Below, piece by piece: positions 3,969 to 40,042 of a DNA stretch of 64,000 nt. The DNA is from Ferrimonas lipolytica (GTDB lineage: Bacteria > Pseudomonadota > Gammaproteobacteria > Enterobacterales > Shewanellaceae). The stretch lies in NCBI RefSeq assembly GCF_012295575.1, contig NZ_CP051180.1, positions 620,001 to 684,000 on the forward strand, given 5' to 3'. The notes below the pieces were generated by a model, which was given only the letters and a program-made list of their open reading frames with translations, had not been told where the DNA came from and made no database searches. The first letter of the stretch is position 1, and each line of letters begins with the position of its first letter. Both the position numbers and the translations under genes were made by a program.

Positions 3969-4274
3969 ATTAAATGGGCTGTGTACCAACTAAGTGTTGT
4001 TCTTTCCAATGCTGTTAAAGCACCGGTTAGGCGAGCGCCGATACAAAGGGTTAAGCACTGCCGTCGTTGATGTTTTGCCTTAGGTCGCAGTCCAGCGAAG
4101 CGTTTTGGACTGCGACCTAAGGCAAGGGGGATTCCAAAGGGGGCGAAGCTCCCTCCTAATGCATACAAAAATGTGCTGTCGCCACCGCGACATAGCCCTA
4201 AAGAGTACTGCAATCGGCAGAGCCGAAGGCTTGATATAAACTTCAACACGTAACTACGACACAGCCATTAAATG
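3969..4274 (+). mobile_element. MITE-like element copy A with 8-bp target duplication
   Basis: A 290-bp element (3977-4266) bounded by GGCTGTGT and ACACAGCC, flanked on both sides by the perfect direct repeat ATTAAATG (3969-3976 and 4267-4274). The terminal inverted repeats continue imperfectly for about 24 bp to a shared GTGTTG. No transposase is encoded. The centre holds a perfect 18-bp inverted repeat (4077-4094 / 4106-4123). Orientation is taken as plus when the GGCTGTGTACCAACTAAG end is on the left. Five further full copies occur in the window. Confidence 0.9.
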
Positions 4275-32514: not shown

Positions 32515-34566
32515 ATGCTGCGCCGTTTATGGGTTAATCCCTATCTTAACTTCTCTTTCCGACTGACAACGGCACTGCTGCTGTTTCTATTGGCTGCGTG
32601 GCAGCTGGATCTGTTGCCACAAGGGGTAATATCGCTGCTGGTTATGCCGGCACTGCTTATCGGTGGCATCGATATCCCCTCCGCGCATTGGTCTCGACGG
32701 ATCGCCTTAGGCGTGCTGGGATACGCAGGGTTTGCCGGACTAACGGCGTGGATTGGCGTGCATGCGCCTGAGTTCACCACCCTTTGGTTTGCCTTACTTG
32801 GCTTTGTGTTAACCAGTTGTAGTGCCTTTGGTAACCTAGCAGCCAGATTAGCTATGGGCTCGTTGACCATGGCGGTTATTGGCCTTGCTACCGGTTCGCT
32901 TTATCCGATTTGGCAACTTACTTTGGGCTTTGGCTTAGCGGTTAGTTGGTTGGTGCTCTATAGCGCCTTATGGTATCGCTTAACCGGCAATATGCCGTTG
33001 CGGCAGTCGCTGGCAGAAACCTACCAACGCCTTGCGGCCTTGATGATTAAACGCCCGGAGCAACTGCTTGACCATGCGCTGCCGGTTCATTTCGATGAAC
33101 CATTGGGGATCCATTTGGCTAACTGTCGCCGTTTATTGGGATCGCTTGGGGATCCCAATAAGAATGGCCCGCTTAAGAACGCCTTTATGTTAGCGGTCGA
33201 TATGCAAGAACGGCTGCAAGCCGTTCCGGATCCGGAGCTCGCCAGTAAGGTGCTGGTAAATGAGGGTACCTACCCAGCTTATCGGCAGTGGACGCGCGCG
33301 GTAGCAGCGCGGTTGCATCGCATCGCTCGAGATCTGCAACGGGGGGGCGAGCCAAGCAAGAGCGACTCTGTTACTCAATTTACCGACCAATTTTTGCAGG
33401 CTTTAGAGCCGATGCTTGCCCGCGGCGGAAAAGAAGGCATGGTGGCCAACTATATGGCCAACAACGCGCGCCAAATTGAGCGATTGGTGCAGCGGGCAGC
33501 ACCACTTTACCAGCGCAATATTAAAGTCGAGCAAAGTCAATCACCTTGGAAAAAGTGGCGCCAGATGATGGTGTGGTCGAATCCGGTCATGCGCGGCAGC
33601 GTTCGAATGTCGCTATTGTTGGCATTAGGTTCGGAGATTGGCAGTTTAATGCCGATGGATAATGGTTTTTGGATCCTTTCTACCGTGGTAGTGGTTTGGC
33701 AAGCCAGCTTTGTGGCAATCCGCAGTCGCGCGTGGCAACGGGCCGGTGGCACTATAGCTGGGTTAGTGTTGGCGCTGATTGCACTTACTGCTGGTGTCAG
33801 TGGCATTTGGGCGTTATTGATGGCAGTGGTTTTGGTGCCAATCTCTTTGGCTTTGGTGACTAAGCATCATGGCTGGACCACCGTTGGCGTTACCCTGATT
33901 TTAATGCTGGCGTTTGAATACAATGGCATGGCTACTACCGAAGTAATCATTGCACGGATGTTCGACACTCTCATCGGCTGTTTATTAGTGCTTGGGGGCT
34001 ACCGCTATCTGTGGCCGCAATGGCAAGGGGGGCGGCAAGCGCAGTTGCGCATCGACTCTTTAGTCAGCTTGAACCATTACCTCAAATTGCTGCTGCAAAG
34101 TTTTAGCGGTAAAGAGGTCGCTGCAATTGACCTAGCCTTGGCTCGACGAGCTGCTTATGAGCAAGGTATTGCGCTTAACGACAGCTTCAATCAGATGCGA
34201 CAGGAGCCTGGTTTTGGCCGCAATGTGCAAAATAGCACGGCACTGCTTGCTCTGTATAAAGGGGCGATGAGTCATATGAATGCCATCGTGCCGCAGGTTC
34301 ATAAAGGCCTTCGTCTCGAAGCAGAGGAGGGGCAAGAGCTCTGTCATTTGTTTGATGAACTTGCCGATATAATGGAACAAACCAGTAAGGGGAATATACA
34401 ACCGTGGCCAGACTCCTTTAAGGAGCGGGAGCAGTGGTTCTATCAGCGCTTGGAAAGCGGTAACACTGATAAGTCTGGTTTTGTACTTTATCAGCTGTCG
34501 TTGGTATTGCAGCGTTATCATGCGATTCACCAGATATTGTTGCAACCGGCCCCCAAAGCCTCGTAG
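32515..34566 (+). CDS. YccS/YhfK-family (FUSC-like) inner-membrane protein
   Basis: A 683-aa membrane protein with two blocks of about five helices (residues about 12-150 and 365-500), each followed by a soluble helical domain, the YccS/YhfK layout related to aromatic-acid efflux (AaeB) and fusaric-acid resistance proteins. The central SVRMSLLLALGSEIGSLMPMDNGFWILSTVVVVWQ-type segment (365-400) is the FUSC core. Substrate unknown. It starts 7 bp after ubiF and is probably co-transcribed. Confidence 0.8.
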   Translation: MLRRLWVNPYLNFSFRLTTALLLFLLAAWQLDLLPQGVISLLVMPALLIGGIDIPSAHWSRRIALGVLGYAGFAGLTAWIGVHAPEFTTLWFALLGFVLTSCSAFGNLAARLAMGSLTMAVIGLATGSLYPIWQLTLGFGLAVSWLVLYSALWYRLTGNMPLRQSLAETYQRLAALMIKRPEQLLDHALPVHFDEPLGIHLANCRRLLGSLGDPNKNGPLKNAFMLAVDMQERLQAVPDPELASKVLVNEGTYPAYRQWTRAVAARLHRIARDLQRGGEPSKSDSVTQFTDQFLQALEPMLARGGKEGMVANYMANNARQIERLVQRAAPLYQRNIKVEQSQSPWKKWRQMMVWSNPVMRGSVRMSLLLALGSEIGSLMPMDNGFWILSTVVVVWQASFVAIRSRAWQRAGGTIAGLVLALIALTAGVSGIWALLMAVVLVPISLALVTKHHGWTTVGVTLILMLAFEYNGMATTEVIIARMFDTLIGCLLVLGGYRYLWPQWQGGRQAQLRIDSLVSLNHYLKLLLQSFSGKEVAAIDLALARRAAYEQGIALNDSFNQMRQEPGFGRNVQNSTALLALYKGAMSHMNAIVPQVHKGLRLEAEEGQELCHLFDELADIMEQTSKGNIQPWPDSFKEREQWFYQRLESGNTDKSGFVLYQLSLVLQRYHAIHQILLQPAPKAS

Positions 34567-34671
34567 GTTATTGTTTAGCTAAGATTAGTCAATTAAGCTG
34601 CTAAATTCACCCAGACCAGTTTAATGTTTTACCATATAAACTGTGTGGAAAATATTTAGTTAAGCAACAAT

Positions 34672-34708
34672 ACTCATCCTTGATGCCGCAAGCCCATCAA
34701 GGATGAGT
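34672..34708 (+). promoter_or_regulatory. Perfect 14-bp hairpin sequestering the M6 protease ribosome-binding site
   Basis: ACTCATCCTTGATG (34672-34685) and CATCAAGGATGAGT (34695-34708) pair perfectly around a 9-nt loop. The 3' arm contains the Shine-Dalgarno AAGGA (34699-34703), six bases before the ATG at 34710. Folded mRNA would hide the ribosome site, so translation should depend on melting or opening of the stem. There is no T-run, so it is not a terminator. Confidence 0.75.
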
Positions 34709-34709
34709 C

Positions 34710-37700
34710 ATGAAATATTGGTTAATTATTTTATGTTGGTTGCTGCCGATGCAGCTAGCAGCGATGCAACCGCCGACAGATCACCAGCGCCAGCAACTCA
34801 ATAAGGATCCCAACCGGCACGAACGGGCTGAGTTTGCGCGATCGCTTTTGCTTCCACCTCGATTGGAATCAGAGCAAGCGCCGAGTGCGGCGGAGCCAAC
34901 AGATATTCCACCATTAGGGCGAACTCGCAACTTACCTGCCACCGGTACGGTCCGGATCCCCATCATCCTGATGGAGTTTAATGATTACCTCCATGCTCCA
35001 GATAAAGACCTCAATTACTATTACGAAAGAACCTTTGAGCCCAACCCCACCGCACTTGCACCGCCAGCCGATAGTATTAATGCCTATTACCACCGTGCGT
35101 CGCGAGGCCAACTCAATATTGAGGGGGACCTACTCGGTTGGTTTAATCCCGGCTACAACCGTCCGATAGATGAAGGCAACGTGGTTGAAGCGGCGGAGAA
35201 AATGCTGACAGAGGCGCTGGAACACTTTTCTGCCCAAGGGCATGACCTCTCCCAATACGATAACGATAACGACGGTGATATCGATACGGTGGCGGTGCTA
35301 TGGACTGGACCTATCGGCGATTGGGCCACACTTTGGTGGGGCTGGGCGACAGCTTACTCAAGTATCGAAGTTGATGGACTTAAACTCGCTGGGTTTACTT
35401 GGCAATGGGCCAATGCGGCGGCGGGACAAGAGTTTACCCCAGTGGTGATTAATCATGAGATGGGGCACGTATTAGGTTTACCTGATTTGTATGATTATGA
35501 CTCGAGTGTGGGTAACTCTGGTGGCGTCGGTACCTTTGACCTAATGCACGGCAACGTTTATGGCATTAATGGCTTCTTTAAGTCGATTTTGGGTTGGGTT
35601 GAGCCGACGGTTGCTGCCACCGTTGGTGGTACAGGCAATTTAGCCCTTAATGAGCAAACCATTCTGCAGATCATGCCGGGAACCCAGAAGGATAACCCTA
35701 ACGATGAATTCTTTGTGGTTGAACACCGAACACCGCAAGGTAATGACATTGAAGCGTACTTTCTGCCCGCAGAGGGAGCGGTAGCGGTATGGCATGTGGA
35801 TGCCGGTTTTTATGGTGGTAGCCGTTCGAAGAACAATAACTCCTATTCCGAAGATAAGTTGCTGCGATTAGTCCAAGCCGATGGTCTTGATAATATTGAA
35901 CTGAGCGGTGCCAGGGCCGAAAGCGGTGATTTTTTTGGTAGCGGTGCTCGGTTTGGGTTTACTGAGCCCGCTGGCAGTCGCCGCAACGACCTTAGTCAGT
36001 CAGGGGTGGCTATCGATGTTAGTTCGGTCGCCACAACCGAGGCTCAGATCAATTACGCCTTGGTTGCTGATGTGCCCGATTTTCGCCTTGATATACCCCG
36101 TTATTCATTTATCCGCGATGGCGATGAGTTACCACTCTATTTTGTTAGTGAGCCGCTCGATATTGAGCTACTTCATCGCGGTGAACCACTGGCGCAGCTT
36201 AGTGCGGCGGAGATACCTTATCGCTGGGACTTTAGCCAGACCAGTGCCATTGATGGATGGTTGGAATTTAAAGTAACCAATTCCGCCGGTGTGACCGCTT
36301 CTGAGTTTCGCCACACCAGCCCAACTATGGAACAGCCGTTTTATTCCTACGTTAACCTAAGTCAAGATCCCTACGACCAGTCACTTGATGTGGTCAAACT
36401 GCTGCGGGAGTCCGGTTTAACTGTGTTGGTCTCGCGTTACCTGTTATCCAGCTACTACCCTTATCTTAGTGGGGCATTTATTAGTTATGGAGCTGGTCGA
36501 AAGGAGATAGACCGTTACCGCTACGGCCTAGCTGAAACCTTGCTTGAATATCGAGCCATTGGCTTACCCTACTATTTTGAATCGGAAGACTATTGGTCAG
36601 ATGTGGTTGATATGGATACAGCGCCAGATCGAATCTATGAGGCGTTTCGTGTTTACCAAAGCTTGGGAGAAAGCGTCGTCTCAACGGTATCGAGCAATGA
36701 TATTAACTTAGAGTCGGAACAGTATGCACAGCTGGAGGAGTACCAATACAGTGATGTGTTGTTGTTTCCAGACTCGCACGGGTTAGAGTCGCTGCTTCAG
36801 GTTGATGGCATGAACAGTTATTACAATCCCGGCACTGGCGAATTTACCGATCCAATGCCGATCAGTGGCAGTTGCTCGGTACTGGACCCGCAATCGTTGC
36901 GTATTGCGGCATCGTGCATTTTGCGCCGCTTCAATGATTTTGAGCAGCGACAAATATTGAACCGCTATTTTGACGCGATGAATATTGAAGCCAGCTTGTA
37001 TACCGGCTTGCCGGAATTTGTACTGGCTAGCCCTCGCTCCGTATGGGAGCAACAGGTAGTGCAGTTATCGGTCGTGCTTGAAAAGTTAGCTGTTGCTGAG
37101 GTTGAAATCGATTGGCAACAGCTTTCTGGGCCTAGTATCACTATCGATAGCAGTGATCCGGTTGCGCCACGACTTACCTTTGATGTTGGTTCGGCTGATA
37201 ACTCAGTGGAGATAGAGGTAGCGGTAACCCATGATGGCAAAACCGCTCGCAAGCGAGCTGAAATAGCGGTTTCTAAGTTAGCACTGCCGGAGTTTGATGT
37301 TGAAGCGCTGCAATTTCCTGCTGAAGTCGCTGAAGGGGAACCGGTAGAAATTAAGGTTAATACCGAGCTAACTGACACCGCTGGCTGGGAATATTCATTC
37401 ACTCAAAGCAGTGGATCTGCGGTTACCAATCTGCAAACGGAATTTTTTAGAGCGAGCTTTACTGCACCGCAGGTCGATACCGACGAGCTTATCGAAATCG
37501 AGTACAACCTGCGTTTTCCCAATATTCATAACATCACTAAATCGGCGCTTATTCGTGTTGTTGACTACCAGCTTCCCTCGCTCGGGCAGCAGCCATCTTA
37601 CTCAATATTGGAGGGAAGCAATGTCCAAATTATGCCGCAGCTCGTTAATCCTGCGGGATTAGACGTTGAGCTGATTTGGCACTTTGCTGCGGGCATTGAA

Positions 37701-39350
37701 CCTGTTTGGTCGCAACAGGGGAATATCCTTCATGTTGAAGCGCCAAGGGTAATGGAGCAGTCGCAGATCCAATTTACCCTCGAACTAATGTTGGACGGCA
37801 CCTTACTTGAGTCGCAGCCAGTCACTATCACCGTTGATGATATTGCCGCACCGCAGCTACGTAGTACCACAACCTTTAACGCTAATGGTGGTGACGTTGT
37901 TGAGTTGGCTATCGATGTGACCGACAGCAGTGGTTATCCACTCTCATACTCTTGGCTCCAAACCAGTGGTGATAGCGTTACCTTGAGTGCTCCAAATACA
38001 GCAACACCTAGCTTTACGGCACCACAAGCCAGCGACGATCTGCGGTTGCTGTTTGAGGTTACTGTTGGAAACGGTTTTGAAGAAGCGACCGCCACTGTTG
38101 AGGTAAATGTAGCCGCTAACGGTGCGGTACCAAACTTCGCCATTTCCTCACCTACTTCAGCTTACTCAGGACAGCGGGTAGATTTAGCCGTTAGCTTGGA
38201 TGGGCTAACGGTTGAACAGGTTGAGCTGGAATGGCTGCAACTGGCGGGAGGTATTGGGGTTGAATTGAATGTCGACGATCCACTAAATGCATGGTTTATA
38301 GTGCCAGACGGCATTGACGATCAAACCGTTGAGTTCGAGTTGCAGGTTAGTCATAACGGGCGAGTCGGTCGTAACACTGTGTCGGTACTGTTGCGTCAAT
38401 ATGTGGCTCCGACTATTCAAATCACCGTAGATGATGAGGTACTTGAATGGGAGCGGGTTACCGTCGCTGCTACGGTGGCTAACCCCGCCGCTTTGCCATT
38501 GCAGTTTGAGTTGCTGCAGCACTCAGGTGCAGCGATCGAAGCGGTGGAGTGGGTCGATGGTTCGGTCAGCTTCATCGCCGCTGAAGTGGCAAGCGATCAG
38601 ACAGTCGAACTGCAATACATTGCTCGATTTGAGGAGTTATTTCTGTTCACCCAGTCCATCAGCATCACCGTCAAAAATCAGCAGCAGGCCAGTCTTGGAG
38701 TACAGCCACAGCTAGAGGCGATTGAAGGTCAGCGGCTGCTTGTCGAGCCACGGGTAAACAACCCTCAGCAGCAAGCAGTCACTGTCAGCTGGCGTTTTGA
38801 CTCTGGCGTTGAACCAAGCTGGAACCAAGTTGACGACAACCTTGAGCTAGAAGTACCAACCATTGTAACCGATCAGGTGGCACGGTTTACCGTTGAGCTT
38901 TGGCTCGATGGTGCCTTGATTGACGCCCAAAATGTTGAGCTCGCTTTAATCAACGTACTGCCGCCAATTTTAACCAGTGCAAGCATGGCGGCCCAAGTGT
39001 CGGGCAACCAAGTTAGGTTATCGATTGGCGTCGTAGACAATAGCGCCAATGAGCTGTTCTACCTATGGCGCCAATTAAGCGGCACTTCAGTGGTACTCGA
39101 TGATGCCAATAGCGCGACCCCAAGCTTTACTGCACCTACGGTAACGTCCAATGAGGAGCTCTTGTTCGAGGTAGAGGTTAACAACGGCATCGAACAAGCA
39201 ATAGCACAGGTGCGAGTGACCATTGAGCCCAAGGCTGCAGTTATCGTAAGCGCTAATGGCAGTGGGGGCGGAGGCGGCGGTGCATTAAATTGCTGGAGTG
39301 TGGTGGTATTGGCGCTGCTTGGTTGGCGTCGGCGCCTACTTAGGAATTAG
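34710..39350 (+). CDS. Secreted M6-family metalloprotease with duplicated Ig-like blocks and GlyGly-CTERM tail
   Basis: A 1546-aa exoprotein. A signal peptide, about 1-18, is followed by a propeptide and an M6 (immune-inhibitor-A-like) peptidase domain (about 80-450) with zinc-binding H249-E-M-G-H253 and an Asp-rich DNDNDGDID calcium-type loop just before. Residues about 450-765 are unassigned. From about 767 a block of four Ig/PKD-like domains occurs twice (about 767-1138 and 1139-1515). The tail, SGGGGGGALNCW, a hydrophobic helix and WRRRLLRN, is a GlyGly-CTERM signal, which implies type II secretion and processing by a rhombosortase encoded elsewhere. Translation is probably hairpin-controlled. 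Confidence 0.88.
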   Translation: MKYWLIILCWLLPMQLAAMQPPTDHQRQQLNKDPNRHERAEFARSLLLPPRLESEQAPSAAEPTDIPPLGRTRNLPATGTVRIPIILMEFNDYLHAPDKDLNYYYERTFEPNPTALAPPADSINAYYHRASRGQLNIEGDLLGWFNPGYNRPIDEGNVVEAAEKMLTEALEHFSAQGHDLSQYDNDNDGDIDTVAVLWTGPIGDWATLWWGWATAYSSIEVDGLKLAGFTWQWANAAAGQEFTPVVINHEMGHVLGLPDLYDYDSSVGNSGGVGTFDLMHGNVYGINGFFKSILGWVEPTVAATVGGTGNLALNEQTILQIMPGTQKDNPNDEFFVVEHRTPQGNDIEAYFLPAEGAVAVWHVDAGFYGGSRSKNNNSYSEDKLLRLVQADGLDNIELSGARAESGDFFGSGARFGFTEPAGSRRNDLSQSGVAIDVSSVATTEAQINYALVADVPDFRLDIPRYSFIRDGDELPLYFVSEPLDIELLHRGEPLAQLSAAEIPYRWDFSQTSAIDGWLEFKVTNSAGVTASEFRHTSPTMEQPFYSYVNLSQDPYDQSLDVVKLLRESGLTVLVSRYLLSSYYPYLSGAFISYGAGRKEIDRYRYGLAETLLEYRAIGLPYYFESEDYWSDVVDMDTAPDRIYEAFRVYQSLGESVVSTVSSNDINLESEQYAQLEEYQYSDVLLFPDSHGLESLLQVDGMNSYYNPGTGEFTDPMPISGSCSVLDPQSLRIAASCILRRFNDFEQRQILNRYFDAMNIEASLYTGLPEFVLASPRSVWEQQVVQLSVVLEKLAVAEVEIDWQQLSGPSITIDSSDPVAPRLTFDVGSADNSVEIEVAVTHDGKTARKRAEIAVSKLALPEFDVEALQFPAEVAEGEPVEIKVNTELTDTAGWEYSFTQSSGSAVTNLQTEFFRASFTAPQVDTDELIEIEYNLRFPNIHNITKSALIRVVDYQLPSLGQQPSYSILEGSNVQIMPQLVNPAGLDVELIWHFAAGIEPVWSQQGNILHVEAPRVMEQSQIQFTLELMLDGTLLESQPVTITVDDIAAPQLRSTTTFNANGGDVVELAIDVTDSSGYPLSYSWLQTSGDSVTLSAPNTATPSFTAPQASDDLRLLFEVTVGNGFEEATATVEVNVAANGAVPNFAISSPTSAYSGQRVDLAVSLDGLTVEQVELEWLQLAGGIGVELNVDDPLNAWFIVPDGIDDQTVEFELQVSHNGRVGRNTVSVLLRQYVAPTIQITVDDEVLEWERVTVAATVANPAALPLQFELLQHSGAAIEAVEWVDGSVSFIAAEVASDQTVELQYIARFEELFLFTQSISITVKNQQQASLGVQPQLEAIEGQRLLVEPRVNNPQQQAVTVSWRFDSGVEPSWNQVDDNLELEVPTIVTDQVARFTVELWLDGALIDAQNVELALINVLPPILTSASMAAQVSGNQVRLSIGVVDNSANELFYLWRQLSGTSVVLDDANSATPSFTAPTVTSNEELLFEVEVNNGIEQAIAQVRVTIEPKAAVIVSANGSGGGGGGALNCWSVVVLALLGWRRRLLRN

Positions 39351-39365
39351 AGTTAGCGAGCAATT

Positions 39366-39400
39366 AGCAGGGCAACCTATTTGAGCTACCCTGCTATTTG
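39366..39400. terminator. Bidirectional hairpin between M6 protease and tpm
   Basis: Stem AGCAGGG / CCCTGCT (39366-39372 and 39389-39395) followed by ATTTGTTT on the plus strand. Convergent genes end on both sides (39350 and 39407). Confidence 0.55.
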
Positions 39401-39406
39401 TTTAAC

Positions 39407-40042
39407 TTAACGAGACAGCAACCACACTTGGTTGTGGGCGCTAATTCCGCCCTTGAGTCCACCAGCTACCTCGGTCTGGGTTAGTAATCGCAATTGGTAA
39501 CTGCCTTGGTAGTGGCGGCTAACTTCAGTTGCGGCGACGGCGAATGGCGGGCCAGATTTTAGGCTTTGATCGTATTCGACGGTGAGCAGCAATTGCGGTG
39601 CGCCCTGAGTAATGGCGATGAGGTGTTGACTGTAATTGTCACGCATTGGCTCAGGCAGTGCTACCAATGCTGCGCGATCGTAGATGGCATCGATATGACC
39701 GATTTGCGCCGCGCTGAGGTGAAAAATATCACCGACAAAGATATCCAGATTGCCGTTGCGATAGTGGCGAATATTATCCAGTTCGATGATCTCAGGCGTT
39801 AGTTTGAGCTGTGCAAATAGTTGCTCAATAGCTAACTCGCTGAGTTCAGCGCCGACTACCGAGAAGCCTTGCTGCAATAACCATTCAATGTCCTGCGTCT
39901 TGCCACACAATGGCAGAAACAAGCGGGCTTGTTTATTGAGATCGAGAGTTGGTAAATATTTGATTAAACTGGCATTAACTTCATGCTGATGAAATCCTGT
40001 CTCTCCGTTATGCCACTTTTTATGCCAAAAGCTCGCTTCCAA
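39407..40042 (-). CDS. tpm: Thiopurine S-methyltransferase
   Basis: SAM-dependent methyltransferase of the TPMT family (211 aa), which in bacteria methylates thiopurines and oxyanions such as selenite or tellurite. Recognised from the N-terminal FWHKKWHNGETGFHQHEVN, then LFLPLCGKTQDIEWLLQQG (the SAM site), GAELSELAIEQLF and YDRAALVALPEPMR. Monocistronic by appearance. It lies 71 bp downstream of the sensor kinase stop on the same strand. Confidence 0.93.
   Translation of the reverse strand: MEASFWHKKWHNGETGFHQHEVNASLIKYLPTLDLNKQARLFLPLCGKTQDIEWLLQQGFSVVGAELSELAIEQLFAQLKLTPEIIELDNIRHYRNGNLDIFVGDIFHLSAAQIGHIDAIYDRAALVALPEPMRDNYSQHLIAITQGAPQLLLTVEYDQSLKSGPPFAVAATEVSRHYQGSYQLRLLTQTEVAGGLKGGISAHNQVWLLSR

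Follow-up and report, generated by a model that had tools for sequence, protein, structure and literature searches.

How can a gene for a large secreted protease be translated when the Shine-Dalgarno (SD) sequence in front of it is buried in a perfect stem? This question is raised by a hairpin located immediately 5' of a metalloprotease gene in Ferrimonas lipolytica, within the 64,000-nucleotide stretch of DNA that was analysed as a whole and is referred to here as the window. The elements that define the problem are the following:

32515..34566, + strand: yccS, a gene for a YccS/FUSC-type membrane protein, co-directional with the protease gene and 143 nt 5' of its ATG
34672..34685, + strand: hairpin 5' arm (the anti-SD strand), ACTCATCCTTGATG, from sequence reading and arm pairing
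34686..34694, + strand: hairpin loop, 9 nt, CCGCAAGCC, from sequence reading
34695..34708, + strand: hairpin 3' arm with the SD inside, CATCAAGGATGAGT, from sequence reading and arm pairing
34699..34703, + strand: SD AAGGA, ending six bases 5' of the ATG, from sequence reading
34683..34706, + strand: in-frame ORF ATG...TGA of seven codons, crossing the loop and the 3' arm, from direct reading
34710..39350, + strand: gene for an M6-domain metalloprotease of 1546 aa with a signal peptide (by eye), a PKD-like domain and a GlyGly-CTERM-like tail

Direct reading places the dyad at 34672-34708, followed by a single C and the ATG at 34710, and the two 14-bp arms pair completely with zero mismatches. 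The perfect stem, the 9-nt loop, the AAGGA and its spacing to the ATG, all of which had been claimed in the first-pass annotation, proved exact when the sequence was reread. The product of the gene matches the M6 family metalloprotease domain model TIGR03296 at 127.7 bits (cut-off 110.8) and contains a HEMGH motif and a K319L-like PKD domain; its earlier description as a large secreted protease appears correct by family. ATG 34710 is a credible start because it is followed by a signal peptide recognized by eye, MKYWLIILCWLLPMQLAA, most of which would be deleted if the next in-frame ATG at 34749 were used. The tail of the protein is glycine-rich, hydrophobic and arginine-rich and matches rhombosortase-dependent and GlyGly-CTERM models at their C-terminal end, with scores below the full-length cut-offs.

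In the mRNA sense, the SD is predicted to be paired in a stable helix. Folded alone, the hairpin reaches -20.2 kcal/mol (z -7.3), a value equalled by 0 of 200 shuffles, and in a 121-nt context -39.7 kcal/mol is obtained (z -4.3). The energy needed to unfold the initiation region, taken as -15 to +3 in a 75-nt context, was compared among 367 ORFs, two of 369 called genes being excluded as too near the sequence end. The protease gene ranks third at 21.6 kcal/mol, with a mean of 6.7 (sd 3.5), a median of 6.1 and ten ORFs at 15 kcal/mol or more; the two ORFs above it are uncurated, and the one at rank 1 (L086) is an ORF of 124 aa. Among the 211 ORFs whose SD score is 4 or higher the protease gene ranks second. 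For this ranking, as for those of upstream scores and leaders given below, genes were called mechanically (longest ORFs, SD-weighted start) and some starts are wrong. The mean probability that AAGGA is unpaired is 0.0006 at 37 C, and together with the opening-cost rank this prediction bears out the earlier view that the stem hides the SD very strongly. A role as RNA thermometer was rejected, since in the model the mean unpaired probability of AAGGA stays at or below 0.0056 at all eleven temperatures from 4 to 70 C; that the stem would be too stable for a simple thermometer had been anticipated at first pass. An intrinsic terminator was rejected as well. The stem is followed by CATGAAATATTG instead of a T run, and no terminator-like site was reported in 34400-34800, between yccS and the protease gene, by a crude scan that likewise reported none after the protease gene, nor in the yccS/TPMT gap of a relative despite stable stems there.

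The predicted masking depends on where the RNA begins. At 37 C, opening of the SD and AUG (34697-34712, a stretch slightly different from that opened in the 367-ORF comparison) costs 20.4-22.6 kcal/mol for nine 5' ends from 34567 to 34672, and no alternative fold of the leader therefore relieves the masking in the model. With the 5' end at 34676 the cost is 13.9-14.2 kcal/mol, at 34680 it is 6.6-8.1 and at 34684 5.6-7.7, the range over 5' ends 34680-34690 being 5.4-8.1 kcal/mol. Removal of the 5' arm is thus predicted to free the SD: 20.8 kcal/mol is required with the 5' end at 34672 and 8.1 with it at 34680. Since the cost drops when this arm is lost, the point at which the message begins would be decisive, and in the model all RNA from upstream is locked.

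The reading preferred here, tentatively and as plausible if short of probable, is that the hairpin acts in cis as a translational lock on upstream-initiated mRNA, most plausibly filtering messages by their origin. RNA starting 5' of ~34676, including read-through from yccS, would fold the 14-bp hairpin, which would hide the SD and allow hardly any translation. RNA from a regulated promoter of the gene itself that begins within the 5' arm would be without this strand of the stem, and its translation would be normal. The fold, the opening cost and the effect of a moved 5' end are computed quantities; that upstream-initiated RNA and a start inside the arm exist is inferred. This lock is preferred since no additional opening factor has to be postulated for it and since it suits a gene that stands behind an older one. 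Further features of the region between the two genes bear on it:

34567..34709, + strand: whole leader from the yccS stop to the ATG, 143 nt, assessed by folding z-score
34571..34667, + strand: possible outer helix of 34571-34582 with 34656-34667, 12 pairs including two G-U, on weaker evidence
34628..34656, + strand: weak promoter candidate TTTACC-17-AATATT, start ~34663, 5' of the hairpin, score 8.31, below the shuffle mean
34646..34674, + strand: weak promoter candidate TGGAAA-17-AATACT, start ~34681, inside the 5' arm, score 7.05, below the shuffle mean

A consensus scan of 34400-34800 returned no sigma-70 site. The listed candidates, and others with starts near 34642 and 34614, come from a promoter frequency matrix. 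The best score in the leader, 8.31, is below the shuffle mean of 8.72 and was reached by 161 of 300 shuffles; among 362 gene upstreams (mean 7.14), 25% reach this score and 75% are lower. As the best candidate does not exceed shuffles, the promoter candidates are not counted as evidence. The weak candidate with its start at ~34681, fourth best in the leader, would place the mRNA 5' end in the 5' arm and so abolish the lock. Rho-dependent termination may occur after yccS.

The same leader can be read in another way, in which the main mRNA starts 5' of the hairpin (e.g. at ~34663) and the stem is a gate opened on signal by a small RNA, an RNA-binding protein, a helicase or a ribosome on a short leader ORF. 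The best-scoring promoter candidate would have its start at about this position, although it does not rise above shuffles, and among 217 upstream regions none is more structured than this leader (z -6.6, mean -0.7). Without the hairpin, its first 105 nt (34567-34671) rank 7 of 217 (z -3.6, 60 shuffles); with 200 shuffles z is -2.9 and 3 of 200 are equally stable. The possible outer helix surrounds two small hairpins in the fold. The leader strand near 34660 can alternatively pair with the early coding region, in competition with that helix. A larger structured leader may thus be present, judging from one sequence, and would favour an RNA over a DNA function. The seven-codon ORF stops in frame just 5' of the ATG, and a coupling function is possible but unsupported: by eye it has no SD of its own, and its start itself lies within the 5' arm. 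For the ISPpu9 transposase gene, a masked ribosome binding site (RBS) has been described, with an antisense RNA as its presumed opener (PMC8450116). Against such a gate, Rfam gave zero matches at gathering score across the window, and hence no known riboswitch or Rfam leader; no leader length tried lowers the opening cost through an alternative fold while the 5' arm is present; and small-RNA, protein and ribosome openers are without positive evidence. A gate opened in trans is rated as unlikely.

Whether the hairpin could be a chance product was approached through its rarity and placement. Perfect hairpins of at least 14 bp with loops of 3-20 nt number nine across 464 kb sampled from the genome (the window plus 20 stretches) and zero in three Markov-1 control sets of equal size, and from this difference the protease hairpin exceeds chance. 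Several other long hairpins carry A/T tracts and look terminator-like by eye, whereas the protease hairpin has no such tracts. In 864 kb, or 21% of the genome, 177 perfect hairpins of at least 10 bp were found, and each was checked for a 3' arm containing an SD-like word 3-10 bases ahead of a start codon whose ORF has 60 aa or more. Four of the 177 show this arrangement, three of them being hairpins with an A tract and a T tract that precede ORFs of 60, 89 and 111 aa, and the protease hairpin is the sole one that masks the SD of a credible gene; its placement is unique in the 864 kb sample. L086, in which a terminator-like hairpin covers the called start of the 124-aa ORF, falls outside this arrangement.

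A mobile or repeated hairpin was rejected. Searches of genome_contigs and viral_contigs (own-genome records possibly omitted) for exact copies of the inner 12-bp dyad gave none, and plasmids and phages yielded only matches at E 0.6-0.7. A high-copy palindromic repeat elsewhere in the genome is unrelated in sequence to the protease hairpin (by eye). In the window it forms a perfect 20-bp hairpin at 4075-4125, with a loop of 11, around GCCTTAGGTCGCAGTCC. Its 16-base core CCTTAGGTCGCAGTCC has 252 genome matches with up to two mismatches (115 forward, 137 reverse), compared with 3 for the reversed control, and exact copies are found 300 bp apart at 909554, 909854 and 910154. These repeats are a high-copy family, REP- or MITE-like by their palindrome.

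The gene neighbourhood provides the setting for the proposed lock. In window 32515-40042, the protease gene sits between yccS and a convergent TPMT gene on its 3' side. In G013, the nearest relative, 79 bp separate yccS from a convergent TPMT homolog and no protease gene lies between them (identities of 70% for YccS and 48% for the TPMT homolog), and because the two genes are adjacent there, the protease gene is taken to stand behind an older gene. No ortholog of the protease was found in the 13 other genus genomes, nor in the order sample (394), the family (152), the class sample (369) or genome_contigs, where partial, domain-level relatives are the only matches. All 14 genus genomes, own included, match the protease at E <=0.001; the matches other than the own one cover the PKD-like or C-terminal part only, except for G008, which matches residues 224-287 around the HExxH motif. 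By these comparisons the protease gene is probably a lineage-specific gain or loss, and a gain is simpler since an ortholog was found in 0 of 13 other genus genomes. In several genus relatives, the region 3' of the yccS homolog (L069-L073) contains repeated stretches like tRNA 3' ends, together with short hairpins, ATGGCTGGGCTACC... with AAAAAAGCC...GGCTTTTT (both by eye).

Like the gene, the leader gave no ortholog in the samples searched, hence no compensatory changes in the stem speak for the lock. Within the genus, leader DNA gives weak matches, the best non-own one at E 0.03, and in none of the seven inspected are both arms kept; the L080 match covers the loop and both arms, but mismatches break the stem, and the L078 match has the SD-plus-ATG context alone in common. 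In 14 distant M6 homologs the initiation region is open, at a cost of 0.5-9.1 kcal/mol for the first in-frame start (L032-L037 and L104-L111; weak M6-like loci such as L030, L039, L041, L042, L045, L046, L048-L050 and L055 lie outside this comparison). A palindrome without function, generated for example by template switching in a barely expressed gene, would account for a hairpin that is seen in one genome only, before a gene that lacks an ortholog in the rest of the genus, and in a genome where perfect hairpins are common. It accounts less readily for an intact frame of 1546 codons with a signal peptide and a sorting-like tail, or for a position on a credible gene's SD that is shared by no other of the 177 hairpins, and is regarded as rather improbable.

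A further explanation assigns the dyad to DNA: a dimeric regulator would bind it as an operator over the promoter and start region, and the RNA fold would be a by-product. An exact dyad near a gene start suits such a role, as do the weak -10 candidate overlapping the 5' arm and the histidine kinase and response regulator with a Trans_reg_C domain encoded near the protease locus. The half-site is not clearly enriched, however, with three one-mismatch genome matches beyond its own arms compared with one for the reversed control, and of 152 family genomes 4 (own included) contain a shortened dyad, compared with 11 of 152 for its reversed control. Sharing of the dyad at other promoters, searched for in the genome and the family, gave no support for a shared operator, and the SD inside one arm is unneeded by an operator. 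This use of the dyad is not considered likely. These comparisons leave both a family-wide RNA element and a shared operator unsupported.

To our knowledge, hairpin locks that depend on promoter choice are known mainly from T4-type phage genes and transposons. In the fold-back inhibition of IS10, external transposase transcripts fold and mask their SD, while native transcripts start inside the repeat; there the structure belongs to the terminal repeat of a transposon, whereas no transposon end was noticed at the protease hairpin. The leaders of T4 gene e (lysozyme), soc and 49 hold the SD and/or AUG in a helix, as here, and the leader structure of gene e is said to lower lysozyme synthesis 100-fold, late transcripts being devoid of its 5' portion (PMC3014915). 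Those genes have phage late promoters, whereas the present case concerns a chromosomal surface protease with candidate transcription starts only. For I-TevI, I-TevII, I-TevIII and segB of T4 and mobE of phage Aeh1, a hairpin is described that masks the RBS of an inserted gene on read-through transcripts, as proposed here; for I-TevI and its relatives, masking affects the early and middle messages that read through, and late transcripts, which lack the 5' strand of the hairpin, are free (PMC2988022). The same logic underlies the lock preferred here, although the phage genes encode mobile endonucleases and their late promoter is known or predicted, whereas the protease gene is not known to be mobile and has candidate promoters only. 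For the transposase gene of ISPpu9, also chromosomal, a leader structure has likewise been proposed to obstruct the RBS, but within a 244-nt 5'-UTR and with the antisense RNA Asr9 as proposed opener, none being known at the protease leader (PMC8450116).

The translational lock suggested for the protease leader is therefore of a known type in an unusual place, a chromosomal surface protease gene. A literature search found nothing on this leader, which is not a claim of its absence from print. The most specific version of the idea is that a bacterial chromosome silences a newly gained surface protease on read-through from an older gene, with translation solely from a start in the 5' arm, and in this full form it has a small chance of being correct. 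If true, a gene gained behind an existing gene would be insulated at translation and not by a terminator, and this insulation would concern a large secreted protease, a product that should be costly when mistimed.
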